Assembly: GCA_003483675.1 (NCBI GenBank)
Contig: DMYK01000195.1
Location: forward strand, 1,352 to 13,325
Direction: 5' to 3'
Origin: Microcoleaceae cyanobacterium UBA11344
Lineage (GTDB): Bacteria > Cyanobacteriota > Cyanobacteriia > Cyanobacteriales > Microcoleaceae
Length of the DNA stretch: 11,974 bases
Shown here piece after piece: positions 566-11,974 of the stretch. The notes beneath the pieces were generated by a model, which had not been told where the DNA came from, made no database searches, and worked only from the letters and a program-made list of their open reading frames with translations. Within the stretch, counting starts at the first letter, position 1. Each line of letters opens with the position of its first letter. A program made the position numbers and the translations under genes.

Positions 566-1141
566 ATGATCGAGCTTTCTACCGAACAACTACTTTACTT
601 GCTGTACGCAGTAGCCTACTCTTTAGAGAGTAAGGTGACTAAAAGCGATGTGAAAAAGCATTTATCTAAAGGATACCAGAAGGATGCGAATGCTATCTGT
701 GATGCTTTGTGTCAGAAGCAATTGCTCGAATCTCCTAAAAAGGGTCAGCTTTTCGTGACAGAGCAAGGCAAGAAAGTTCTAGCTGTTAATCTGCAAACCA
801 GTAAATATGAGTTTGATTCAGCAAAAGGAGCTAAACTTATAAATACTCTTTGGCGCTACTGTCAAATCGGAGTTGTGGCTTCTCAGGCTTCCGATGGTGG
901 TAAAGAGATGGACTTTGAGACATTTGTAGAAAAGTTTAAGGCTCTTTATTTTGAAGAAAGAAAGCGTCAAGAGTTAAGGGGAGTAGTTGCTATTCGTAGC
1001 CGAGAAATTTGTCAGAAATTCTTGGAACAGAATGATATATCTCAATCAAATTTGAATAAAAACTTTGCTTTGCTTAAATCAAATGCTAAAGTTTTTGCAG
1101 TTATCGAAAAAGAAGATGAACTTATTCAGTGGGTAGAGTAA
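566..1141 (+). CDS. Small winged-helix-like protein, partner of the downstream ATPase
   Basis: This 191-residue soluble protein has no signal peptide or membrane segment. Residues 4-75 read as a winged helix: helices at 4-20 and 26-34, a recognition-like helix around 38-53, then a beta wing with KKGQLFVTEQGKKVL at 58-72. Residues 115-190 are mostly helical and may hold a second such fold (RSREICQKFLEQ, SNLNKNFALLK, then VFAVIE). The ATG is supported by AGAGGAA at 556-562. The stop is only 3 bases before the next start, so the two genes are almost certainly co-transcribed and translationally coupled. I infer a DNA-binding or adaptor subunit acting with the ATPase. I recognise no named family. 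There is no HIP1 octamer in the gene, unlike its surroundings. Confidence 0.75.
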   Translation: MIELSTEQLLYLLYAVAYSLESKVTKSDVKKHLSKGYQKDANAICDALCQKQLLESPKKGQLFVTEQGKKVLAVNLQTSKYEFDSAKGAKLINTLWRYCQIGVVASQASDGGKEMDFETFVEKFKALYFEERKRQELRGVVAIRSREICQKFLEQNDISQSNLNKNFALLKSNAKVFAVIEKEDELIQWVE

Positions 1142-1144
1142 GCC

Positions 1145-2866
1145 ATGCCAGAAGACGCAGGAAAAAAAAGGTACATAAGAGACTTCCTTCAGCAAGTGAA
1201 GTCAGGCACAGGATTTGTTGATGATATTAGAATAGAGCGCGTTGTTAGACTTCCAGGGTCAGAGGGTGAAGGATGTACAGCCAAAAGTTTGTCGGGGCAG
1301 CAAATATCTAACCTAACTCAGCTTATTGAGGACGATCTAAGTCATACATTTGATGATGGTTACTTTACATTTAGATTCGTTGCGGCCCTAGTTGGTAGTG
1401 GTAAAACTTCCCTATTAACTTACTTGCATGAATTAACTAAAACTAAACCAACGTATCAGAATCACTCTGTAGTCGTTGAGTTCCAACTTGCTGATTTACC
1501 TATGGAGAATGGTTTTAAGGAAAAATTGTATTCCCACATTTTAGCTCATACATTTTATGAATTGTTACACAATTCAAATCTCTTGTTGTCAGTTAAAAAT
1601 GTAGCTGAACAAGTTTTAAGGGATTATTTAGATGATGATCAAGTCAATGGACTCAATGGTGCAAAAAAAATAATACCATTTCGCAACAAATTTAAAACGT
1701 ATATTGCTAATAGAGTAGATAGTCTTGAAGAATTTTTCTTTTACATAGTATCTGAAGTATCAGCCGTCGATACTCAGTTTAGTTTTGTGTATCTCACAGA
1801 TGAGTTAGATGCTTTAGCACAATTTCCTAATCAAATTAAAGAAACCAGATTGCTTTTTAAGCAATTGATTAGAAGAGCATTAGACAAATTTGAATCAAAG
1901 ATTCGCATATTAATTTACTTAGTAGGTACATCAAATAACGTAGAAAGTTTTATTGCTGAAGATTCTGTCATGGAAAGTCTTTTAGGTGAATCAGTTATAA
2001 ATCTAAGTAAGGGTTATACCAATGAATTTGAACTGATTAGAAATAAAATAGATGAGCGTATTGAAGGGGCTTATAAGGGATATAAAAATTTTGCTCAAGC
2101 ATGGCAAGAAATCAAAGATATACCATTGAATCCTGTTAATACGTTGAGGGAGTTTTGTCAACACTATGCTGGGTCTGTCTTAGAAATACATCAAAAATAT
2201 TTTAAAGAAGCTCCAGAGCAGGTATTTGAAGGCAATTCACGCCAGTTAGTAGAATCTGAGTGTAGACAACACTGGGCAAGTTACCTCAAGCAGAAATCAT
2301 ACACTCTATCGGCAGTTTCAACTACAACAGTGATTGCACGTCATGCCTTCGACTCTTGTGTAGAATTACTGCACAACAGCCACTGCGTTGCTAAAGCCTT
2401 TGGGGAAGCTAAAAACTATGAACTGTTGAGCAGCCATTTAGAAACGTTTAATCAATGGTTAGAAGATGCCAGTTTCAAACCAGATGGGACACCGGGAGAT
2501 TTATCTTTTATGATTGCTCCTTCCTGTCCACCTCTCCTGCAAAGAAAGTTGGAACTTAAAAATATTCAATTTATCAAATCTGATAAGGTTATTAGCACAC
2601 CCACACCAACACCCACACCAATACCCACACCGATACCCACACCTACAACGCCATTACCTATTAATGTTAATAAAGCCGATAAATCCGAACTAACGAAGGC
2701 TTTCGAGAGAACCTATATCAAGCAGAAAACTATTGATAAATTGATCGACTATAGAAATACCAAAATCTATCATGACATAGAAGATATGGCGTTGCGTCTA
2801 AAGCTTACCACAGCAGTAAAGGAAAAACTTCAAGCAAAGTTTGATAAAGGTGAGATCTGCTTTTAA
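1145..2866 (+). CDS. P-loop ATPase with Thr-Pro linker and C-terminal ComEA-like helix-hairpin-helix
   Basis: This is a 573-residue soluble protein. Walker A is ALVGSGKT (81-88). A hydrophobic strand ending in acidic residues, FVYLTDELD (214-222), is the Walker B. LIYLVGTSNN (256-265) sits where AAA+ or STAND proteins carry a sensor strand. A long helical region of unknown role runs to about residue 480. A Thr-Pro linker (484-505) follows, then INVNKADKSEL and LIDYRN in residues 506-566, resembling the ComEA-type helix-hairpin-helix that binds DNA without sequence specificity. The layout suggests an ATP-driven machine on DNA, with the upstream winged-helix protein as partner. The general shape recalls ATPases of multi-gene phage-defence or DNA-processing systems, but I cannot place it in a named one, and no nuclease or methylase is adjacent. 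The start follows the previous stop by 3 bases. The gene is AT-rich and lacks HIP1 octamers, suggesting transfer. Confidence 0.8.
   Translation: MPEDAGKKRYIRDFLQQVKSGTGFVDDIRIERVVRLPGSEGEGCTAKSLSGQQISNLTQLIEDDLSHTFDDGYFTFRFVAALVGSGKTSLLTYLHELTKTKPTYQNHSVVVEFQLADLPMENGFKEKLYSHILAHTFYELLHNSNLLLSVKNVAEQVLRDYLDDDQVNGLNGAKKIIPFRNKFKTYIANRVDSLEEFFFYIVSEVSAVDTQFSFVYLTDELDALAQFPNQIKETRLLFKQLIRRALDKFESKIRILIYLVGTSNNVESFIAEDSVMESLLGESVINLSKGYTNEFELIRNKIDERIEGAYKGYKNFAQAWQEIKDIPLNPVNTLREFCQHYAGSVLEIHQKYFKEAPEQVFEGNSRQLVESECRQHWASYLKQKSYTLSAVSTTTVIARHAFDSCVELLHNSHCVAKAFGEAKNYELLSSHLETFNQWLEDASFKPDGTPGDLSFMIAPSCPPLLQRKLELKNIQFIKSDKVISTPTPTPTPIPTPIPTPTTPLPINVNKADKSELTKAFERTYIKQKTIDKLIDYRNTKIYHDIEDMALRLKLTTAVKEKLQAKFDKGEICF
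2597..2644 (+). repeat. Four 12-bp in-frame tandem repeats encoding the Thr-Pro linker
   Basis: Four consecutive 12-base units, ACACCCACACCA or variants with AT at the start and G or T at the end, occupy 2597-2644 inside the ATPase gene. They encode alternating Pro-Thr and Pro-Ile. Gain or loss of a unit keeps the reading frame and would only change the spacing between the ATPase body and the helix-hairpin-helix. Confidence 0.85.
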
Positions 2867-2890
2867 CAGAAAATGTAATAATTAGATCAT

Positions 2891-3658
2891 GTGGTAGTTG
2901 GTAGGCGATCGGCTTTGCAACTGAAAGATATCAACGACCGCAACGCTGAAATTGTTGCAGCGCGGGAGATGCTGTTTAAAGCTTTAGCAACATACAGAAA
3001 CCCGCATTTGTTAGCAGAAACTTGTGCGGCGGGACAGTTGCGGCGGTTAGAGTGCAGTTGGGCGATCGAGCAAAGTATTATCGGCACGTATCAGGTGCAG
3101 AATGAATTTGGTGCTGCGGGCGATCGCATTTCTCAACTTCAACAACAAATCCGTCAAGATGGCTTAACAGTAATTGCCGGCTGCGACTCTGAGGACGAAT
3201 TAGATTTTCTCTTCCCAGAAATCACGCGCATTCACAATCACGATTTAGCCGCATTAGACATTTGGCAAAATCAGATTGACTGGATGAATGCTTTGCCCCC
3301 AAGTGAGTTAAAACAGTTACAAAGTGCTGATTTTAGTAAATCCAACTTAGCTGTTATTGGGGATAAAAAATCAGCCGCAACAGCTTTAGCAATACCAGAC
3401 GAACAGTTATTTTATGAAAATTTGCGGCCCAAGTCTCATTTTTATGCGCTTCGCACTCAACTGGAATTAATGCTCGATCGGCAGCAGCGTGAAGATTACG
3501 AAAATTATATCATTGAGCAAGGGGAAATAGCGGGTCATAAAAGTTTAGTATCGTCGAATTTGGAAAAAGCTTCTGATTTGGCTGTTGCTAATCTTTTTTA
3601 CTATTTCAGAATCCGGGATGAATCGGAAGAGGAATTAGAATTAGCGAACACCCCATAA
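2891..3658 (+). CDS. Helical protein of unknown function, possibly 5'-truncated
   Basis: The frame encodes 255 residues from a GTG. An in-frame TAA at 2879-2881 closes it just upstream. There is no Shine-Dalgarno site before the GTG; a TTG at 2915 and an ATG at 2969 are alternatives with no better support. The protein looks soluble, mostly alpha-helical and partly coiled-coil, rich in Gln, Glu and Leu, with no signal peptide, membrane segment or catalytic motif I can name. It carries HIP1 or near-HIP1 sites (for example 3120-3127), so it looks native, unlike the block just upstream. The first residues already read like the middle of a helix, and the start lies 24 bases after the ATPase stop. 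I infer that the 5' end may have been lost when the upstream block arrived; it may alternatively be an intact gene with a weak start. Confidence 0.55.
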   Translation: MVVGRRSALQLKDINDRNAEIVAAREMLFKALATYRNPHLLAETCAAGQLRRLECSWAIEQSIIGTYQVQNEFGAAGDRISQLQQQIRQDGLTVIAGCDSEDELDFLFPEITRIHNHDLAALDIWQNQIDWMNALPPSELKQLQSADFSKSNLAVIGDKKSAATALAIPDEQLFYENLRPKSHFYALRTQLELMLDRQQREDYENYIIEQGEIAGHKSLVSSNLEKASDLAVANLFYYFRIRDESEEELELANTP

Positions 3659-3697
3659 AAGGGGTAAAATTCACCTGACGGCATCATTGTCACCCAT

Positions 3698-3758
3698 CCT
3701 GTAGGGGCGGGTTCACCAATAGCTTTAAAGCTAGCAGACAGGTTAAATAAACCCGCCC
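3698..3758. repeat. 61-bp interspersed palindromic repeat, copy A
   Basis: The unit begins CCTGTAGGGGCGGGTTC and ends ATAAACCCGCCC, its partly complementary other end. The middle (CCAATAGCTTTAAAGCTAGC and beyond) matches the reverse complement of the copy at 5522-5582 in most positions. A third, more diverged copy lies at 5437-5496. Conserved ends, fixed length and a variable middle mark a small non-autonomous repeat family. Confidence 0.8.
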
Positions 3759-3797
3759 CCACCCCGCGAGGTAGCCCTTTATTGCAACTGGTGCAAG

Positions 3798-3903
3798 ATA
3801 TAGCAATCCTTGCAGGAGTCGTAAAGTTTTTGACCCCACCCCAACCCTCCCCTTATTAAGGGGAGGGAGTAAGAAATTCACAAATGATTTAGGATTGCTA
3901 TAT
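3798..3903. mobile_element. MITE-like element with 13-bp terminal inverted repeats
   Basis: Perfect 13-bp terminal repeats, ATATAGCAATCCT (3798-3810) and AGGATTGCTATAT (3891-3903), enclose 80 bases. Inside is a near-ideal hairpin, CCCTCCCCTT and AAGGGGAGGG around an ATT loop (3845-3867), preceded by a CCCCACCCC tract. No open frame is credible. Size, ends and interior resemble non-autonomous elements common between cyanobacterial genes. It lies 29 bases before the sigma-like gene, so promoter or leader sequence of that operon may derive from it. Confidence 0.7.
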
Positions 3904-3932
3904 TAAGTCCTGCTTTTTTAGTTTCTGTATCT

Positions 3933-4628
3933 ATGGATGAACAACTGTACCGACTGATTTCACAGGTGTGCCAGCACCCTTTGAAAAGCCCGAAAAGGCG
4001 AAAAGCGATGAATCTGCTGCTCGTTGAAATTCAACAACTACCGGGATTAGGTAAATCCTCTCACCCAGACTATTTAGATGCTTTGAATCGTACCTTTGAA
4101 TGGATAAACCGACAACTATGTCAAGGCTTCGATCGCGATCGACCTTTGATTCAAAAGCGCTTGCTGCAATGGGTCAACAGTTACCTCTACTGGCGACTTA
4201 AAGATTTATACTCACAAGCAAAGGGCGATCGCAGTTTAGACGCACCTATTACAGACAGTCAAACCGAAACTTCCCTGCTAGAACTTCTACCGACAACAAA
4301 TTTTGAGATTCCCACGCGCAGCGGACTAGATGCTTATATTGAACAAATAGAACGAGAACAACAACAGCAGGTTGGTCTAAAATTGGAACAGTACGTGGAG
4401 GAAGATCCTGATGAAAAACTGCGGAATTGCCATCCTCAAACCTATCCAAATTGTAACTGTCAGTTACTCAGTTTCAGAGTGCTGCTAAAAAACCCACCAG
4501 ATAAATTTAGCGCGATCGCCAGAGAACATAATATCAACTATCAAACTCTAAAATCTCATTGGGAAAGGCACTGTCGCCCTTTACTCCAGGCGATCGCTCT
4601 AGAGCTAGGATACCAAAGAGAGGTTTGA
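3933..4628 (+). CDS. Sigma-70-like transcription regulator of the DUF1822/CHAT cluster
   Basis: This 231-residue protein resembles a divergent sigma factor. Residues 50-95 (ALNRTFEWINRQL to YWRLKDLY) look like a remnant of sigma region 2. SLDAPITD followed by SLLELLP (101-120) is the phrase that follows region 2/3 in many sigma-70 proteins. Residues 189-222 (FSAIAREHNINYQTLKSHW) form an HTH like region 4. Between them, C166, H167, C174 and C176 could bind a metal. The weak region 2 raises doubt about true promoter melting; it may act as an HTH regulator instead. The ATG at 3933 has no clear Shine-Dalgarno site. Its stop is 3 bases before the DUF1822 start, so the two are one operon. I recall such sigma-like genes beside DUF1822 and CHAT genes in other cyanobacteria, which supports but does not prove a shared job. 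Confidence 0.75.
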   Translation: MDEQLYRLISQVCQHPLKSPKRRKAMNLLLVEIQQLPGLGKSSHPDYLDALNRTFEWINRQLCQGFDRDRPLIQKRLLQWVNSYLYWRLKDLYSQAKGDRSLDAPITDSQTETSLLELLPTTNFEIPTRSGLDAYIEQIEREQQQQVGLKLEQYVEEDPDEKLRNCHPQTYPNCNCQLLSFRVLLKNPPDKFSAIAREHNINYQTLKSHWERHCRPLLQAIALELGYQREV

Positions 4629-4631
4629 ACA

Positions 4632-5408
4632 ATGAACAGCACAGAAGCCCCCCGATTGACAGTTCCCCTCGGTACCGAAGCTCACCGTCTGGCGAAGCAA
4701 TTAGCAACAGAAACCCTGCAACTCGCTCCCGCATCAATTAAGCGAGAAGTGGCTAAGCGAGTTTACCTCAATACATTAGCTGTTTATGCCGTTTACAGTT
4801 ACTTGAAGTGGCAAGCCTACGAGCCCCAGCTAGAGCAAGGGGATAGCTGGCAGCCTATAATTTGTGCTCGATGGGATGTCGCCGATTTGGTACTCCCAGG
4901 AATCGGTAAATTGGAGTGCCGTCCTCTGTGGTTCGGGGAAAGTGCGATCGCCATTCCCCTAGAAGCAACAGAAGATCGCATTGGCTATGTAGCAGTTCAG
5001 TTTGAGGAACAATTAAACTCAGCCAAACTGTTAGGATTTGTACCATCAGTAGAGGCTTTAGAAATACAAATTGCTAATCTTCAAACCCTCGATGATTTCG
5101 TAGATTATTTAGAGCGACTGGAGTTAGCTAATAGTTTTTTGCTCGGTGACGATCCAGTAGCAGTGCAAGTGAGAGATGTACTCAACACTCGACCAATAGC
5201 CGAGATTATTGCCCAACTGGAACAGATTTATTGCAACGAACCGGAAGATGAAAGAGCCTATGCTGTTAAAGATGTTTTTACTGGTGAGGGAATTTATGCA
5301 GGGAGCGATCGGGAATTGGGAGAAGATGTTGATGAGGGCGATCGGGAAATTGAATTACTGGAATTGGCTGAAGAATTGCTGGAAAAATTAAGAGAGATTT
5401 GGAGCTAA
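4632..5408 (+). CDS. DUF1822 family protein
   Basis: This 258-residue protein of unknown biochemical role matches what I know of the cyanobacterial DUF1822 family: VPLGTEAHRLAKQLA near the start, the conserved NTLAVYAVYSYLKW (47-60), then DSWQP, KLECRPLW (93-100) and a GYVAVQF strand (118-124). A C-terminal extension (about 150-258) is helical and becomes strongly acidic after residue 222, ending in a Leu/Glu-rich helix. No signal peptide or membrane segment is seen. AGAGAGG lies about 9 bases before the ATG, and the sigma-like gene ends 3 bases upstream, implying coupled translation. The CHAT gene follows after 224 bases of repeats. I infer an accessory or adaptor protein in the same pathway; no enzyme motif is visible. 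Confidence 0.85.
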   Translation: MNSTEAPRLTVPLGTEAHRLAKQLATETLQLAPASIKREVAKRVYLNTLAVYAVYSYLKWQAYEPQLEQGDSWQPIICARWDVADLVLPGIGKLECRPLWFGESAIAIPLEATEDRIGYVAVQFEEQLNSAKLLGFVPSVEALEIQIANLQTLDDFVDYLERLELANSFLLGDDPVAVQVRDVLNTRPIAEIIAQLEQIYCNEPEDERAYAVKDVFTGEGIYAGSDRELGEDVDEGDREIELLELAEELLEKLREIWS

Positions 5409-5436
5409 TATCATGTCACGTTAAATAGATATAATT

Positions 5437-5582
5437 CCTGTAGGGGCGGGTTCGCTTTAGTCTCAAATACAAATAATAAATCTCATAAACCCGCCCCGAT
5501 CGAGATATTACAAGTGGGGGAGGGCGGGTTTATTTAACTTATCTGCAAGCTTTGAGATGGTTGGCGAACCCGCCCCTACAGG
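5437..5582. repeat. Inverted pair of 61-bp palindromic repeats (copies C and B)
   Basis: The outer arms CCTGTAGGGGCGGGTTCGC (5437-5455) and GCGAACCCGCCCCTACAGG (5564-5582) are a perfect 19-bp inverted repeat. Inner arms ATAAACCCGCCC (5485-5496) and GGGCGGGTTTAT (5522-5533) are a perfect 12-bp one. Each half is a unit of the same family as 3698-3758, set head to head with 25 bases between. It fills most of the gap between DUF1822 and CHAT. In RNA it would fold into a long stable stem, but no T run follows, so it is not an obvious terminator. Confidence 0.85.
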
Positions 5583-5632
5583 TTAATTGAGAATACTAGA
5601 AAGCAGGCAATTTGAAATAGAGGCGATCGGCG

Positions 5633-8600
5633 ATGAGCGCTAAAAAAATTGATGAACAGCGACAACAAGCTTATTTCGATTTTCTAATGAAGTTGCTGCT
5701 GGTAGCGGCCCAAAGTGAAGGTAATGATAAGCTGTTTTACCCCTTATTTCTAGAAAATATAGAGCTATTAAATGAAGAATTTGCTCTCTATTTGCGAATT
5801 AAAGTCAATCAGTTTTATGAGGAATATGAATTTCAACAGTGTTTAACATTAGCAGCAATTCTTACTCTAATATCCGAAGCAATTCAAAAATTCCCTCAAG
5901 GCTCCAAGGCGAATAATTTAGAAATTGCGATCGCCGGTTACGAAGCAGCCTTACCAATTTTAAGCCAGCCTGAAAATCAGCTAATGCGGGCGCACCTACA
6001 AAATAATCTGGGTTTGGCTTATAAAGAGCGAATTTATGGTAATGTCTCTGACAACATAGAGCAAGCAATTCAATGCGATCGAGCAGCACTGCAAATTTTT
6101 ACCGATGAGGCATTTCCCGAACAGTGGGCGAGAGTATCTGGTAATTTAGCGATCGCCTATCAAGAGCGAAGCCAAGGAGAACCCGCAGACAATCTAGAAC
6201 GATCGATTGCTATCTTACAATCTACTTTACAAGTAAATACCCGCGAAGCTTTCCCCTATAAATGGGCAAATACTCAAGTGAATTTAGGGGCTGCTTACTT
6301 TCGGAGAATTCTGGGGAAACAGGCTGACAACATAGAGTTAGCTATTACTTGTTATGAAGCATCTCTACAAGTTTTAACCAAACAGGAATCTCCGCCGCTA
6401 TGGGCGGGTATTCAAAACAATTTAGGCGTTGCTTGCAGTCAACGAATTAACGGAGAAAAAGCTGACAATTTGGAGCGTTCAATTGAGTGCTACAAAGCAG
6501 CTTTAGAAATCAGAACTCTTTCAGAATTGCCGATCGACTGGGCGGAAACTGAAGATAATTTAGGCAGTGCTTATCTAAGGCGCATTCGAGGAGATCGCGC
6601 GGACAATTTGGAAAAGGCAATTCAACACTACCAAGCTGTTTTACAAGTTCGGACTCATCAAGCATTGCCCCAACTGTGGGCGCAAACTCAAAATAATCTG
6701 GGAAATACTTATCTTGACAGAATTCGGGGCGATCGAGCCGAAAATATCGATCGAGCAATTACTTGCTACCAAGGTGCATTGCAAGTTTATTCTCGCGAGG
6801 GAACACCTCAGTCTTGGGCAGATACACAAATGAATTTAGGCAATGCTTATTTTAGCATAATTTTGGGCGATACAGCCACAAATATAGAACTGGGAATTCA
6901 GTGCTATCAAGGAGCATTATTAGTCTACACCCGCGAAGCACATCCTTTAAATTGGGCTAAAATTCAACAAAATTTGGGCAATGCTTATCGGCAAATAACT
7001 GCGGGCGATCGAGCCGAGAACTTAGAGCAAGCTATTCGCTCATGTGAAGCAACTTTGCAAGTCTACAGTCAAGAATTAGACCCTTGTTATTGGGCTAATG
7101 CACAAGTAATTTTGGGAAATGCTTATGCAGATCGAGTGAAGGGAGTGCGGGAAGAGAACTTGAAAGCAGCCATCGATTGCTATCATAAAGCTTTACAAGT
7201 AAATACTCGCGAAGCCTTACCTGAAAATTGGGCTATGGTTATAAACGATTTAGGAGTGGCTTATGAAAAGCTAGGAGAAACTGAAAAAGCTATTGCTCAT
7301 TTTAAATTAGCTTTGGAAATTTACACTCCCGCAGCCTTTCCCAGCGATTGTTTGCGAGTAGGAAGAAGCCTCGGAAATATTGCTTTCACAACTGAACAGT
7401 GGGATAAAGCTATTGAAGCTAACAGTCAAGCTATTGAAGCGGTAGAAACTAGCCGTTCTTGGATTGTTAGCGAACAGCGGCGGCAGGAAATTTTAGAGTC
7501 ATCTTTTCTGGTATACGCTAATACAATACAGGCTTGCGTCAACAATAAACAGTTAGATAAAGCCATTGAATATGTAGAGAGAGGGCGCTCCCAACGCCTC
7601 GTAGATTTCATGGCAAGCAATGACCTTTACTCAACTGAATCAATTTCTCCTGAAATTCAAACTTATTTGCAGCAGTATGACAGTTTGCAACAACAAATAG
7701 ACTCTTACCGCTATCCTCAGTTATCTAAAAGTCAGCAAGAATTCGCGACGGTTAAAATTAGCACTCGTTCCCGTGCTGCTCTGGCTGCTATTAATGAATC
7801 GATCGCTCAATTAGAAGCTCAGAAACAACAAGTTTGGGAACAACTCAGGCGCTTAGATCCTGTGTTGGCCGGAGAAATGAAAGTCGCAGCTCCTAATTTA
7901 GCTCATATTCAGCAATTGATTGATTATCAAACAACAGCTATCCTGAGTTTTTACACAACTTACCAAAATACTCACATCTTTGTCATCAAACGCGATCGAA
8001 TTACTTGTCATACTTGTTTAGAGCAAGACAAAGGGTTGCAAACCTGGATTTTCGAGCGCTGGTTACTTCCCTACGTGCAGAATAAAGCGGAATGGGAAAA
8101 CTCTCTGCAATCAACTCTGTCTCAATTAGCAAAGTCTCTCGATTTGAAACAACTAATCGAACACCACCTCAGCGGTATTGAAGAACTGATTGTAATACCT
8201 CATCTTTACCTACATTCAATTCCATTTAGCGCTTTACCTATTGATAATGACCAATACCTAGGAGATAGATTTCTAATACGCTATGCTCCAAGTTGCCAAG
8301 TTTTAGAATTTTGTCATAAACGCCCTCAAACCAACGTTCAACTGAGGTACGGAACGGTGGAAGATGCGACAGAAGACCTACCTTGCGTGAGTTTTGAATG
8401 TTCTCAACTCGCTCAAATATATAGCATTCCTGAAGAACGACGGCTGCGCGGTCGCAGTCAAGCAACTGTCAGTAATTATCGGCGCTTGGTAGAGCAAGTT
8501 TCCGGTCTTCATTCTAGTCATCATGCCCAATCTCGCTTTGATAATCCTTTAGAATCAAAGCTATTTTTAGGTGATGGATCGATTACCCTTGGGCAACTCT

Positions 8601-9148
8601 TAACTCCGGCTTGGAGGTTCCCCAATTTGGAGGATGTTTTCCTTTCTTGCTGTGAAACAAATCTTGGTTTAACTGAAATAACAGATGATGTTCTGACTCT
8701 TTCCACTGGTTTCTTATGTGCTGGTGCGAGAAGTGTTATCGCTACCCTTTGGGCTGTTGACGATTTAGCAACCGCACTATTTTCTATTTTTTACCACCAA
8801 TACCGACAGCAAGGAAAAAGTCGCATTGTCTCTCTGCAACAAGCCCAAGAAAAGTTGCGATCGCTCAGCGGTCAAGCACTCAGTGAATACCAGCAGCAGC
8901 TAATACCATTACTTGAGAGTAAATTTAAGGCGGCCGAAAAAGCAAGAAAAGCAGCTAAAGAGTGTCGCGATCGCGAAGTCAAAGGCAGTGAAACTTATAT
9001 AAACTGGTATGACCAATACAAGCAACACAAAAAGGTAGCAGAAAGTCTCCTGAGAACGAAGAAGCAATTCAAAGATGCGATCGAGAAACCTCTTCCCTTC
9101 TCTCACCCCTCCGACTGGGCCGCTTTCACCTGTTCCGGCTTGCGGTAA
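5633..9148 (+). CDS. TPR-CHAT protein, probable caspase-like cysteine protease
   Basis: This 1171-residue cytosolic-looking protein has a helical N-terminus (1-115), then ten TPR-like repeats whose LG.AY motif recurs at residues 126, 172, 218, 264, 310, 356, 402, 448, 494 and 540: a constant 46-residue period. Each repeat carries the longer loop typical of cyanobacterial TPR-CHAT proteins (GDRAENLE). Irregular TPRs and coiled coil follow to about 750. The CHAT domain spans about 760-1171: LYLHSIPFSALP (858-869), the catalytic His region LHSSHHAQ (H964), LSCCETNLG (C1007), then AGARSVIATLWAVDD (1030-1044). The final HPSDWAAFTCSG (1158-1169) is the usual CHAT ending. Both dyad residues are present, so protease activity is likely; the substrate is unknown. 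A charged helical insert (about 1080-1155) separates the core from the ending. AGAGG at 5619-5623 supports the ATG. It follows the sigma-like and DUF1822 genes on the same strand, probably as one transcription unit unless the intervening repeats interrupt it. Confidence 0.92.
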   Translation: MSAKKIDEQRQQAYFDFLMKLLLVAAQSEGNDKLFYPLFLENIELLNEEFALYLRIKVNQFYEEYEFQQCLTLAAILTLISEAIQKFPQGSKANNLEIAIAGYEAALPILSQPENQLMRAHLQNNLGLAYKERIYGNVSDNIEQAIQCDRAALQIFTDEAFPEQWARVSGNLAIAYQERSQGEPADNLERSIAILQSTLQVNTREAFPYKWANTQVNLGAAYFRRILGKQADNIELAITCYEASLQVLTKQESPPLWAGIQNNLGVACSQRINGEKADNLERSIECYKAALEIRTLSELPIDWAETEDNLGSAYLRRIRGDRADNLEKAIQHYQAVLQVRTHQALPQLWAQTQNNLGNTYLDRIRGDRAENIDRAITCYQGALQVYSREGTPQSWADTQMNLGNAYFSIILGDTATNIELGIQCYQGALLVYTREAHPLNWAKIQQNLGNAYRQITAGDRAENLEQAIRSCEATLQVYSQELDPCYWANAQVILGNAYADRVKGVREENLKAAIDCYHKALQVNTREALPENWAMVINDLGVAYEKLGETEKAIAHFKLALEIYTPAAFPSDCLRVGRSLGNIAFTTEQWDKAIEANSQAIEAVETSRSWIVSEQRRQEILESSFLVYANTIQACVNNKQLDKAIEYVERGRSQRLVDFMASNDLYSTESISPEIQTYLQQYDSLQQQIDSYRYPQLSKSQQEFATVKISTRSRAALAAINESIAQLEAQKQQVWEQLRRLDPVLAGEMKVAAPNLAHIQQLIDYQTTAILSFYTTYQNTHIFVIKRDRITCHTCLEQDKGLQTWIFERWLLPYVQNKAEWENSLQSTLSQLAKSLDLKQLIEHHLSGIEELIVIPHLYLHSIPFSALPIDNDQYLGDRFLIRYAPSCQVLEFCHKRPQTNVQLRYGTVEDATEDLPCVSFECSQLAQIYSIPEERRLRGRSQATVSNYRRLVEQVSGLHSSHHAQSRFDNPLESKLFLGDGSITLGQLLTPAWRFPNLEDVFLSCCETNLGLTEITDDVLTLSTGFLCAGARSVIATLWAVDDLATALFSIFYHQYRQQGKSRIVSLQQAQEKLRSLSGQALSEYQQQLIPLLESKFKAAEKARKAAKECRDREVKGSETYINWYDQYKQHKKVAESLLRTKKQFKDAIEKPLPFSHPSDWAAFTCSGLR

Positions 9149-9156
9149 TATCAAAG

Positions 9157-9241
9157 CCGGTAGCATCGGAATTATTCATCTCTCTTATCTCCCTCTGTGT
9201 TCTCTGCGTTCTCTGTGGTTAAATCATTCCGATGCAACCGG
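9157..9241. mobile_element. MITE-like element with 16-bp imperfect terminal repeats
   Basis: CCGGTAGCATCGGAAT (9157-9172) and ATTCCGATGCAACCGG (9226-9241) are inverted repeats with one mismatch. The interior, CTCTGTGTTCTCTGCGTT and CTCTGTGGTTAAA, matches a phrase I recall as a common cyanobacterial intergenic repeat. The element starts 9 bases after the CHAT stop codon and has no coding content. Confidence 0.65.
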
Positions 9242-9355
9242 AAACGATATAACTCAAGCATTCCTGGACTGTTCGTGAAAAAGCCGGTTTCTGACTACCC
9301 CTGCGTCTGGGAAGAAACCCGGTTTTCGATCGTTTCGGCGGGCTGTAACGCACTA

Positions 9356-9393
9356 TTTTGGTGAGAAACCGGCTTTCTCACCAAAAATTTTTT
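9356..9393 (+). terminator. Terminator-like hairpin downstream of the CHAT gene
   Basis: A perfect 13-bp stem (TTTTGGTGAGAAA and TTTCTCACCAAAA, 9356-9386) around the loop CCGGC is followed by one A and six T. This fits an intrinsic terminator for transcription leaving the CHAT gene about 200 bases upstream. The hairpin core also belongs to the dispersed GAAACCGG palindrome family, so it may be a repeat that serves as a terminator. If it works, the short gene at 9510 needs its own promoter. Confidence 0.6.
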
Positions 9394-9452
9394 CATTTCC
9401 CCCCAAAAACCTGCATAATTTTTCGACTTGGCCCTGGTTAATAGAAAAGCGC

Positions 9453-9464
9453 AGTTGGCCAACT
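9453..9464. promoter_or_regulatory. 12-bp perfect palindrome upstream of the short gene
   Basis: AGTTGGCCAACT is its own reverse complement and ends 45 bases before the ATG at 9510. It lies about 34 bases downstream of the possible -10 at 9414-9419, a place where an operator could sit. Palindromes of this length are uncommon but do occur by chance. Confidence 0.25.
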
Positions 9465-9509
9465 CGCTTCTCCCAAAATTTCTGATTCGCCTTAACGGAG
9501 AAACGAGCA

Positions 9510-9626
9510 ATGACAGCATTTTATCAAGTCCTATCCTATCCCTCGCTAGGAGAGATTTTTCAGCCTCAAACCAAAAAAGGTGAGGATGAAGATGACGGTC
9601 CTATTGTTCCACCTAACCTTCGCTAG
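9510..9626 (+). CDS. Short 38-residue peptide of unknown function
   Basis: A 38-codon frame starts with ATG at 9510 and ends with TAG at 9624-9626. GGAG at 9497-9500 lies 9 bases upstream, good spacing for a ribosome binding site. The peptide starts with an aromatic and hydrophobic stretch (MTAFYQVLSYPSLGEIF), then QPQTKK, an acidic patch GEDEDDG (24-30) and the Pro-rich end PIVPPNLR. This three-part layout resembles a leader-plus-core precursor or a short signalling peptide, but it has no double-Gly motif, no Cys, and no modification enzyme nearby. It lies between the TPR-CHAT gene (same strand) and the convergent NB-ARC gene, is preceded by a possible terminator and palindrome, and is followed by an inverted repeat. 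I infer a functional tie to one of these neighbours; a protease substrate is one option. I do not recognise the family, and it could still be a chance frame. Confidence 0.5.
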   Translation: MTAFYQVLSYPSLGEIFQPQTKKGEDEDDGPIVPPNLR

Positions 9627-9654
9627 TCATCTAATCCTGGACGCATGGGCACCT

Positions 9655-9721
9655 AGAAACCGGGTTTTTTTACGAAAATACTGGATTTGAGCCTTTAATC
9701 CCGGTAAAAAACCCGGTTTCT
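9655..9721. repeat. 67-bp inverted-repeat element of the AGAAACCGGGTTT family
   Basis: AGAAACCGGGTTTTTT (9655-9670) and AAAAAACCCGGTTTCT (9706-9721) are perfect 16-bp inverted repeats around 35 bases. Related single arms lie at 9277-9292, 9313-9327, 9363-9379 and 11924-11940. It sits between the stop of the short gene and the stop of the convergent NB-ARC gene, so it may help end transcription from both sides, although the T runs lie inside the stem. Confidence 0.75.
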
Positions 9722-9743
9722 TTGGTATTGATGCGATCGCGAA

Positions 9744-11771
9744 CTAAATCTCTAATTTTGGAGACTGCGAATTATGGGGATAATTCAAGCGCTGGCGTGC
9801 TGTGATTTTCCAAATATCTAATTCTGGCAGTCTCCAATGAGCTCCTTGAGGTTTCCGATCGCCGCGATCGCACTTCAAAAAACGATCGTAATCAACTAAT
9901 GCTTCTTGGATCTTGCCTTGAGCCTCTTTCACTTGTGCCAAAATATAATAAGTCGCTGGGTGAAGATGATTGAGTTCGATCGATTTTAAAAGCTGTAACT
10001 CAGCATCGTTATAGCGATTTTGCAGGAAGTAAGCCCACCCCAGGTTTTTGTGCAAAGCCGCTAGAACCAGATCGTCTTTGACTTTCTCTAAAATCGGCAA
10101 TATCAGGTTAATTGCTGTCTCCACATTTCCCGATATAATTTCCAAACGTGCTAAATTACTAATAGCTGCATAAGCACCTCGGTTGTTAAATCCGGCGGCG
10201 ATTTGATAGTGAATTCGTGCCGTAGATAAATCTTGCAACTGTTCGTAAGTAGCTCCTAAGTTATAGTGAGATGCGGCTAAGTCAGGATTAAATCTGATGG
10301 CTTGGGTTAAGTAAGCTTTGGCAGTTTGGAACTCTCCTGATAAATACTTTTTATGACCCAGTTGATTGAGGTATTTGGCAATCAATTGATGAATTATGTA
10401 TTTTTTTATTTCTGGATTTAGGGTAAAACTATCTTCTGCCGCTTCAATAATTTTTAGTAAAAATGCTTGTTTGATGAGTGATTCTAAAACTGGTTGCAAG
10501 TCAGATATTTCTCCAGCAAAGGCTATTTTTGATTTCAAATCATTGGTGCTGACGGGTTTACTTCTCAAGGCTAAGCAACCGATTAGGTAAATTTCTGTAT
10601 CTGATAAATCAGCGCTAGTTTTTTGCAAAAAATCTCGCAGAATCGGCTGTATAACTAAGGTTGTCTGCTGGATAAATTGGGTGATATTCCCTGAAAATAA
10701 GTCAGCAAAGTTAGCGGTGACAATCTTTAAAAGTAAGGGATTGCCACCGTATAATTGGCTCATTTCTGAAAATGACTTGTTTTCGGTACTACTAGAAAAC
10801 CTTTTGGCTGAATAGAGAATTTTTAGAGCGCTTTGCTCGTCTAAGCCATTTAGTTGTAATACTTTAATATGTGAAGTTTCTTCTACGAGCGAATTAAGTT
10901 CTAGGGGTTGATGCCAACTGGTGAGTAGCAAACAACTTTGATGGCGGGATGTTACTATTCGTTGGAATAAGTCTGCATAATTTTCGTATCCTGGTTGATA
11001 GCGATCGCCCTGAAGGAGGATGCTATCAAGTTCATCGAATACTAACAAACACCGTGAGGAACGTAGGTATTTGAGCAATAAAGAGATTCTCTTTTCCGTA
11101 TTCTCTGGTAAGTGGGTTTCTGGCTGGGGAGACAAGGATTGAATTAAATCGAATAAGATATTTGACATGGGCGGGCGTTCTTTGAGCGATCGCCAAATGC
11201 AATAATCAAACTCACCCTGAATTTGTTGTAGTGTGGTGAGGGCCAATGCAGTTTTGCCAATTCCTCCCATTCCCAGTAGTGTAACTAATCGACAACCATC
11301 GTTGACTATCCATTGCTTTAAAGTGGCAAGTTCAGCACTGCGATCGTAGAAAATAGGGACATCGGGCGCTTCACCCCAATCGATCCGGGGGTGTGTTTTC
11401 GCCGCTGTCTCTGAGGGAATAACTTCGCTGATGGGCGGGGTAGTGTCAGCACTGACGCTAGAGTGTGCCGTGTCATTTTTAACAGAAATCCCATCGCTGG
11501 CTGTACCATTACTAAAGTTAGCGACTTGCTGTTGATACTGTGAAATGAGGATTTGTTGTAATCTAGCCAGCTTTCCGGGCCCTCGGCCCACAATTTGAAA
11601 TTTTTTGTAAACCTCACCGAGTCTTTTCTGAAGCGCTTCTTTGCTGACACCGAGTTCTTGTGCGATCGCATCCATCGGTTCGCCTTGGATGGCTCTGGAG
11701 AGTGCCTCAAATTCGTTGTCGGAAATACCTAAATTGGTGGCTAGATTTCTTAAAAAGTTTTGGGGAATCAT
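9744..11771 (-). CDS. STAND ATPase: HTH, NB-ARC and TPR domains
   Basis: This 675-residue soluble protein opens with a helical region (1-80) containing an HTH-like GEPMDAIAQELGVSKEALQK (30-49), a domain I associate with the N-terminus of cyanobacterial NB-ARC proteins. A polar linker (about 82-128) follows. The NB-ARC ATPase has Walker A GMGGIGKT (167-174), Walker B LLVFDELD (242-249), a sensor strand LLLTSWHQP (281-289, with Trp where Arg is often found) and the GLPL-like GGNPLLL (342-348). A helical/winged region spans about 375-460, and TPR-like repeats about 468-635. Proteins of this build are nucleotide-dependent switches that oligomerise when the repeat region senses a ligand. No protease, nuclease or TIR effector is attached, so output is presumably through the HTH or a partner. 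It is convergent with the CHAT cluster. No Shine-Dalgarno site precedes the ATG, and an inverted-repeat element begins one base upstream. Confidence 0.9.
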   Translation of the reverse strand: MIPQNFLRNLATNLGISDNEFEALSRAIQGEPMDAIAQELGVSKEALQKRLGEVYKKFQIVGRGPGKLARLQQILISQYQQQVANFSNGTASDGISVKNDTAHSSVSADTTPPISEVIPSETAAKTHPRIDWGEAPDVPIFYDRSAELATLKQWIVNDGCRLVTLLGMGGIGKTALALTTLQQIQGEFDYCIWRSLKERPPMSNILFDLIQSLSPQPETHLPENTEKRISLLLKYLRSSRCLLVFDELDSILLQGDRYQPGYENYADLFQRIVTSRHQSCLLLTSWHQPLELNSLVEETSHIKVLQLNGLDEQSALKILYSAKRFSSSTENKSFSEMSQLYGGNPLLLKIVTANFADLFSGNITQFIQQTTLVIQPILRDFLQKTSADLSDTEIYLIGCLALRSKPVSTNDLKSKIAFAGEISDLQPVLESLIKQAFLLKIIEAAEDSFTLNPEIKKYIIHQLIAKYLNQLGHKKYLSGEFQTAKAYLTQAIRFNPDLAASHYNLGATYEQLQDLSTARIHYQIAAGFNNRGAYAAISNLARLEIISGNVETAINLILPILEKVKDDLVLAALHKNLGWAYFLQNRYNDAELQLLKSIELNHLHPATYYILAQVKEAQGKIQEALVDYDRFLKCDRGDRKPQGAHWRLPELDIWKITARQRLNYPHNSQSPKLEI

Positions 11772-11842
11772 TAGACATCGACCATATTTATTGTGGAACA
11801 GGCATCTTGCCTGTTCAAAGCTTGCAATTCTTGCGATGTCTA
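11772..11842. repeat. Small inverted-repeat element in the NB-ARC 5' leader
   Basis: TAGACATCG (11772-11780) and CGATGTCTA (11834-11842) are perfect 9-bp ends. Inside lies the hairpin GAACAGGCA / TGCCTGTTC around a TCT loop (11796-11816), a sequence I recall as a widespread cyanobacterial repeat ('ggaacaggc...gcctgttcc'). It begins immediately upstream of the NB-ARC start codon, so the leader of that mRNA would be largely repeat-derived. On the minus strand TATATA at 11872-11877 could be a -10, without a good -35. Confidence 0.6.
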
Positions 11843-11923
11843 TTGTATTAGATTACTACAAAACATCCTTTTATATAAGGTTTTGCTGGTAGAACAGGAG
11901 GTTTGCGATCGCCCTTGGTAGTC

Positions 11924-11974
11924 AGAAACCGGGTTTTTTTACGCAAATCCTCCGCTCAAAGCCGACAGTTCAAG
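11924..11974. repeat. Partial copy of the AGAAACCGGGTTT repeat at the window edge
   Basis: AGAAACCGGGTTTTTTT at 11924-11940 matches 9655-9671. The next bases, ACGCAAATCCT, resemble the ACGAAAATACT that follows the other copy, so similarity extends past the palindromic arm. The window ends before a second arm could appear. Confidence 0.55.

Follow-up and report, generated by a model that had tools for sequence, protein, structure and literature searches.

A conserved cyanobacterial neighbourhood of sigma-like, DUF1822, TPR-CHAT, short peptide and STAND genes: a possible signalling cassette

Introduction

Do five adjacent genes of a filamentous cyanobacterium serve one pathway, or have two unrelated modules come to lie side by side? 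The question is raised by a stretch of 11,974 nt from contig DMYK01000195.1 (GCA_003483675.1) of Microcoleaceae cyanobacterium UBA11344, referred to below as the window, whose part 3933..11771 encodes a sigma-like protein, a DUF1822 protein, a protease composed of TPR repeats and a CHAT domain, a peptide of 38 codons and, convergently, a STAND protein of the type helix-turn-helix (HTH)-NB-ARC-TPR. The genome assembly containing it comprises 4.78 Mb in 643 contigs and is 75% complete, with the window on contig C45. The initial annotation, made from the sequence alone, described these genes, inferred their linkage, with recurrence on unrelated backgrounds as the test, and considered it plausible that they form a pathway of signalling or defence equipped with a transcription regulator of its own. 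Open reading frames (ORFs) confirmed all five genes at the expected positions, including the spacing of 3 bases between the sigma-like gene and DUF1822.

Results

Conservation of gene order

The order sigma-DUF1822-TPR-CHAT-peptide followed by a convergent STAND gene is complete in five loci: the window and those of genomes G025 (locus L033), G011 (L132/L034), G520 (L288, with the peptide in L271) and G164 (L289); the NB-ARC domain of the STAND protein in G164 scored below the Pfam cut-off. Together they represent three families, while G518 (L221), where CHAT, peptide and STAND genes are seen before the contig ends, adds a fourth family in part. DUF1822 of several cassette families is only 40-60% identical to that of the window. 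In a tree of 86 DUF1822 proteins with midpoint rooting all five complete loci fall into one clade of 10 with support 0.989, the other members of which (L133, L135, L136, L167 and G057) are interrupted by contig ends. In G057 the sigma, DUF1822 and CHAT genes share a contig, an HTH-TPR gene being located on a different one, and the genome of L133 contains one STAND-TPR match, at a contig edge. A single rule for recognising the peptide, permissive enough to accept the off-motif copies of G520 and G164, was applied inside and outside the clade, outside loci having at least 7 kb of downstream sequence. With this rule the peptide was present in 5/5 clade loci with enough sequence against 0/51 loci outside the clade, and STAND-TPR genes were likewise absent from the 51 outside loci. 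The five-gene linkage is, therefore, above chance within one DUF1822 clade, and peptide and STAND are not linked to DUF1822 and CHAT in general. Judged by recurrence, the linkage inferred initially thus holds across three families of this clade and partly in G518, and fails for DUF1822/CHAT loci taken broadly.

A first table of 80 loci, where only L134 had both peptide and STAND, suggested that these two were unrelated neighbours of the other genes. This reading was revised after a search with the TPR region and further loci had shown the same order in other families, but it was kept as a rival. In its present form it states that two independent modules, sigma-DUF1822-CHAT and peptide-STAND, adjoined once in the clade ancestor and were kept together by descent or joint transfer, with no common pathway. 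Indeed, each module occurs alone, as the 51 outside loci demonstrate for the first one and peptide-TPR pairs devoid of the sigma cassette in many genomes for the second, and a strong STAND-TPR match is missing from three genomes of the clade. Order and orientation, however, are constant across three families, despite the moderate identity of DUF1822 in several of them and with G518 as a partial fourth, so that we consider accidental union somewhat unlikely and prefer the reading of the five genes as one cassette.

Table 1. Features of the studied part of the window
Feature	Position	Strand	Basis and remarks
ECF-type (extracytoplasmic function) sigma factor	3933..4628	+	Fold comparison; sigma2 at residues ~1-103, sigma4 at ~138-229
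DUF1822 protein; putative partner of sigma and substrate of the protease	4632..5408	+	PF08852, E 2.4e-31; starts 3 bases after the sigma-like ORF
TPR-CHAT clan-CD-type protease, 1171 aa, His964 and Cys1007	5633..9148	+	PF12770, E 5.6e-38
38-codon peptide gene, product ending GEDEDDGPIVPPNLR; proposed ligand	9510..9626	+	Motif recurrence; 82% identical copy in G025
HTH-NB-ARC-TPR (STAND) protein, 675 aa; proposed peptide receptor	9744..11771	-	PF00931, E 2.3e-14, and TPR families; oriented towards the peptide gene
TPR region of the STAND protein (residues 445-675)	9747..10439	-	Part common to shorter HTH-TPR proteins adjoining peptide genes

The peptide and its motif

The C-terminal motif of the peptide is [D/E]DxPIVPPN. 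A pattern, the back-translated (D/E)xPI(V/I/M)PP(N/S) followed by a stop codon, was run on 386 genomes of the phylum and gave 15 matches in 12 of them, all belonging to the family or order of the window, with 0 matches in the reversed control. With a second pattern, lacking the stop codon, 13 matches were registered in 11/368 genomes of the order (control 1). A laxer pattern matched 140/388 genomes with controls of similar order and served only for picking candidates that read as the motif; of 11 stretches taken from these candidates, L222 and L223 turned out to be chance. The loci examined yielded 27 different ORF translations containing a variant of the motif, some being closely related to one another, and PIVPPN is encoded by 15 different DNA strings. 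Since the motif recurs with a reversed control of 0 and varies synonymously, a chance ORF was ruled out and the 38-codon gene, as initially annotated, is real. Between the copies of the window and G025, 7 codon changes alter the amino acid and 1 is silent, so that constraint is visible in the tail alone, when genomes are compared.

The N-terminal parts vary between loci. By eye some of them are hydrophobic and signal-like, while the peptide of the window and several others have no such N-terminus. G528 has two tandem peptide genes, and G475 encodes a 186-aa protein with several motif copies and an 89-aa protein with two. These G475 proteins (L213:9904-10464, minus strand, and L214 ~1700-1965, plus strand) have signal-like N-termini and several DDPIVPPN-type copies, and resemble multi-copy precursors. 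One could, therefore, imagine that the peptide is a secreted signal or a modified natural product sensed between cells, with the sigma-CHAT half as its output. Relatives with signal-like N-termini or several motif copies are in line with this idea, but the window's own peptide is of the other type and no modifying enzyme was noticed in the Pfam scan of the window proteins, which makes it quite improbable here.

Association of the peptide with TPR proteins

The NB-ARC domain of the convergently encoded STAND protein scored 53.7 bits against a Pfam cut-off of 23.5, in agreement with the initial assignment, and its HTH stayed below the cut-offs (HTH_10 E 0.0012, GerE 0.08). Genes found tail-to-tail with those of peptides elsewhere (family f25 and others) encode proteins of ~344-357 aa, which match the STAND protein only over residues ~444-668. 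In each of three shorter relatives scanned (344-357 aa) a LuxR-type HTH was above the cut-off and TPRs were present, with no NB-ARC match. NB-ARC as the part common to peptide neighbours was thus ruled out, and the TPR region was used as a query.

This search gave at least 150 bits in 43/368 genomes, with a gap in scores to the next value of 127. All 11 genomes having a strict match to the motif by the pattern without stop, in an apparently identical sample of 368, are among these 43 (hypergeometric probability 1.6e-11, uncorrected for kinship; counted by genus, 7/7 in 17/146, 8e-8). Reading of loci revealed tail-to-tail pairs of peptide and TPR genes at distances up to ~0.9 kb in 21 genomes: G000, G025, G011, G518, G528, G286 (two), G151, G101, G136, G123, G175, G196, G200, G368, G659, G303, G030, G583, G236, G520 and G164. 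The last six pairs came to light when the neighbourhood of the TPR gene was inspected, and the peptides of G583, G236, G520 and G164 depart from the motif; no such peptide lay beside the other TPR genes whose surroundings were examined, except in G303. Based on this co-occurrence and adjacency, it is likely that the peptide is a ligand of the TPR domain.

Another possibility is that the peptide serves the CHAT protease as substrate or arises as its product, i.e. a toxin or exported signal made by cleavage, and that the STAND protein is its immunity or control partner. In the cassette the peptide gene does follow the CHAT gene on the same strand, two peptide copies (L120 and L126) are found in clusters with other CHAT-like genes, and G475 encodes proteins with several motif copies. 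However, most peptide-TPR pairs seen have no adjoining CHAT gene, so that the peptide is usually partnered by the TPR gene instead of CHAT, and we regard a substrate role as unlikely, keeping to the ligand role. The two copies mentioned (G286, L120:10001-10114, and G101, L126:6046-6150, both on the minus strand) lie within clusters of weak CHAT relatives, have no TPR receptor beside them, and are accompanied by proteins with signal-like N-termini.

The sigma-like protein, DUF1822 and the CHAT protease

The sigma-like protein had no Pfam family above the cut-off, and a profile search registered SigA at E 0.002 from one alignment and no match from a larger one. Its assignment as a regulator is nevertheless backed by fold comparison: the predicted fold resembles that of ECF sigma factors, and both the sigma2 and sigma4 domains are present. 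Cys166, His167, Cys174 and Cys176 are clustered (window 4425-4463, plus strand), Cys174 and Cys176 being nearly invariant among 48 sequences; a metal or redox site is possible.

From 387 stretches of named genomes that encode DUF1822, the best 80 were taken as the set of loci. The nearest named relatives, two metagenome-assembled genomes of Oscillatoriales cyanobacterium (L133 and L134), have DUF1822 97% identical to that of the window. A sigma gene is immediately 5' of DUF1822 in 79/80 of these loci, commonly with an overlap of a few bases. The model predicted for DUF1822 has a confidence score (pLDDT) of 87, and its N-domain appears to be alpha/beta and PD-(D/E)XK-like. Two residues after the invariant E95, tentatively assigned to the (D/E)xK motif, there is R in 30, C in 9 and S in 2 sequences (n=41) in place of the catalytic Lys of this motif. 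That DUF1822 acts in suicide or defence as an effector of the nuclease type, which the CHAT protease would free or block, is a thought prompted by this predicted fold, and with the Lys missing it seems very improbable. Of the two roles suggested initially, signalling is favoured for the cassette and defence is without direct support in this analysis, in which PADLOC gave weak matches only, the best being BovA (E 1.1e-4) on the CHAT protein.

In the window protease TPR repeats come first and the CHAT domain occupies residues 829-1169. His964 and Cys1007, annotated as intact, are both present. Among the TPR-CHAT proteins that passed the score filter the catalytic His (27/27) and Cys (27/27) are kept, and in proteins with CHAT near the N-terminus neither the His column nor a Cys-Asp-Gly motif varies (42/42 after the score filter). 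To count such genes, 55 loci whose sequence continues for at least 5.5 kb beyond DUF1822 were searched over a span of 6 kb, classes being assigned by our own profiles. A CHAT-type gene was registered 3' of DUF1822 in 50/55 of them, the nearest one encoding TPR-CHAT in 20 and CHAT near the N-terminus in 30; none was detected within 6 kb in L150, L161, L180, L183 and L211. Ten downstream proteins from DUF1822 loci without a close TPR-CHAT match were scanned with Pfam, and 8/10 contained CHAT; the other two were an AAA-like protein and a WD40/nSTAND1 protein with no CHAT among the families listed.

Several architectures were seen along the way. L047:6815-8464 (plus strand) encodes a natural fusion of CHAT (108-340) with the C-terminal half of DUF1822 (392-548). 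C-terminal sensors are swapped in some CHAT proteins encoded after DUF1822, for instance periplasmic-binding-protein domains in L059:6902-9394 and L065:4672-7314 (both minus strand) and a cyclase plus CHASE2 in L071:6258-9185 (minus strand).

Surroundings of the cassette

Three close-set genes at 566-3658 (plus strand) lie 5' of the cassette in the window, none with a family above the cut-off. Their products are 191 aa (weak Mrr_N), 573 aa (P-loop-like, weak NACHT) and 255 aa (start codon GTG); in G025 only the third has a relative 5' of sigma. Dispersed intergenic repeats occupy 3686-3764, 5516-5594, 9272-9391, 9655-9682 and 11917-11951. An inverted pair with arms of 79 nt brackets sigma-DUF1822, and AGAAACCGG-type units are found around the peptide and STAND genes. 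Neither Rfam nor tRNA scanning gave a match in the window.

Discussion

Taken together, the data are compatible with the following scheme. The neighbouring DUF1822 protein would keep the ECF-type sigma factor inactive until DUF1822 is cut by the TPR-CHAT protease, which would free sigma to transcribe its target genes, as in the Csx29-Csx30-CASP-sigma system yet with no CRISPR part. The PIVPPN peptide would bind to the HTH-NB-ARC-TPR protein of the convergent gene, at its TPR domain, and switch this STAND ATPase, which may then act via its HTH and/or activate the CHAT protease. Gene order and the precedent of Csx29 argue for the link between protease and sigma, and by this analogy we find it probable that DUF1822 holds sigma and that cleavage by CHAT releases it. 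The coupling of the two halves is proposed because the cassette is conserved; the probability that the five genes form a single signalling cassette with both halves in one pathway is, by our estimate, roughly 0.4.

A number of observations weigh against this scheme. In the cassette itself two of five peptides are off-motif (DDPIVDPN in G520 and DDPIVPTY in G164), and the codon changes between the window and G025 show no purifying selection on the N-terminal part of the peptide there. In the clade, no STAND-TPR match at E <= 1e-30 was found in the genomes of L135, L136 and L167, for which assembly completeness is not stated, and L167 has no recognisable sigma gene. In several genomes the peptide does not adjoin this TPR gene, namely in G475 (two), G296, G537, G617, G575, G593, G202, G627 and G114, and further copies lie away from the TPR gene in G286, G101 and G030. 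As to the proposed inhibitor, DUF1822 has no detectable likeness to a known anti-sigma factor or Csx30: its profile gave no Csx30 match at E <= 1 against PDB sequences, and the anti-sigma entries among the listed fold matches were just RsbW rows with Foldseek E 2.9-4.5. Finally, no promoter motif common to the upstream regions of sigma and the peptide was found, by a comparison of low power in which the null gave none either.

If the scheme is true, control of sigma factors by relief through CHAT proteases would be widespread without CRISPR, and cyanobacteria would possess a family of peptide receptors resembling quorum sensing of Firmicutes. For DUF1822, an unexplained cyanobacterial family, the roles of sigma partner and of protease substrate would become open to testing. 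The small peptide, whose motif is fixed, could be made synthetically and assayed with a defined domain of the receptor.

Comparison with known systems

The closest analogue of the first half is type III-E CRISPR, where Csx29, according to the literature, has the catalytic pair H615/C658 and cleaves a sigma inhibitor. In both cases the genes of a TPR-CHAT protease, of an ECF-type sigma factor and of a third protein lie together, and the catalytic His and Cys are spaced by 43 residues in Csx29 as well as in the window protease. This protease matched the sequences of Csx29 structures with E ~4e-6, but obtained only 72.2 bits with the Csx29 model NF041237, for which the cut-off is 300. Other differences are the absence of Cas families (including Cas7-11) among the 8 window proteins scanned and of an array among the repeats of 3659-11974, a check confined to the window, as well as the lack of a sequence match between DUF1822 and Csx30 structures and the extra peptide and STAND genes. 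The cassette seems to work like the Csx29-Csx30-sigma arm, yet it is not a member of type III-E.

Peptides of the FxSxx-COOH system, as its name tells, end in a fixed C-terminal motif. Its TPR protein (NF040586) is of the NB-ARC-TPR type, like the STAND protein of the window, but the latter scored 39 bits with this model, far under the cut-off of 300, and the peptide tail is different. The closest precedent for a peptide and its receptor is RRNPP, where, as described in PMC10075063, a short peptide gene adjoins the gene of a TPR receptor. By the criterion given there (a receptor of 250-500 aa with TPRs) the window protein with its 675 aa fails, whereas its relatives of 344-357 aa fit. The genes here are arranged tail-to-tail, the window receptor contains NB-ARC, and the hosts are cyanobacteria instead of Firmicutes. 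The RRNPP propeptide is secreted according to the same text; since the peptide of the window has no obvious secretion signal by eye, in contrast to some signal-like relatives, its secretion is doubtful.

ECF sigma and DUF1822 genes beside genes of EACC2-caspases have already been reported (Kaur et al. 2021, PMC8195603). In the relevant section of that paper a caspase-like protease likewise adjoins this pair, and peptide and STAND are unmentioned. The window protein differs, judging by its domain order, in having N-terminal TPR and C-terminal CHAT and no EACC2-type N-terminus. DUF1822 is called a TPR protein there, while the model predicted here has an alpha/beta N-domain. The PIVPPN string did not occur in open-licence PMC literature, where absence is a weak indication, and the passages naming DUF1822 in this literature contained no link to a peptide or Csx30-like control. 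Within these sources, then, the sigma-DUF1822-protease neighbourhood is known already and its coupling to peptide and STAND was not found. Seen against these systems, a tentative and wider view may be offered, to which we give less credence than to the cassette itself: cyanobacteria may use peptide signalling in which the PIVPPN family is read by HTH-(STAND-)TPR receptors, and in one lineage this signalling may be wired to a CRISPR-free CHAT/anti-sigma/sigma switch, a circuit of the type that could have supplied type III-E with its Csx29-Csx30-sigma output arm.

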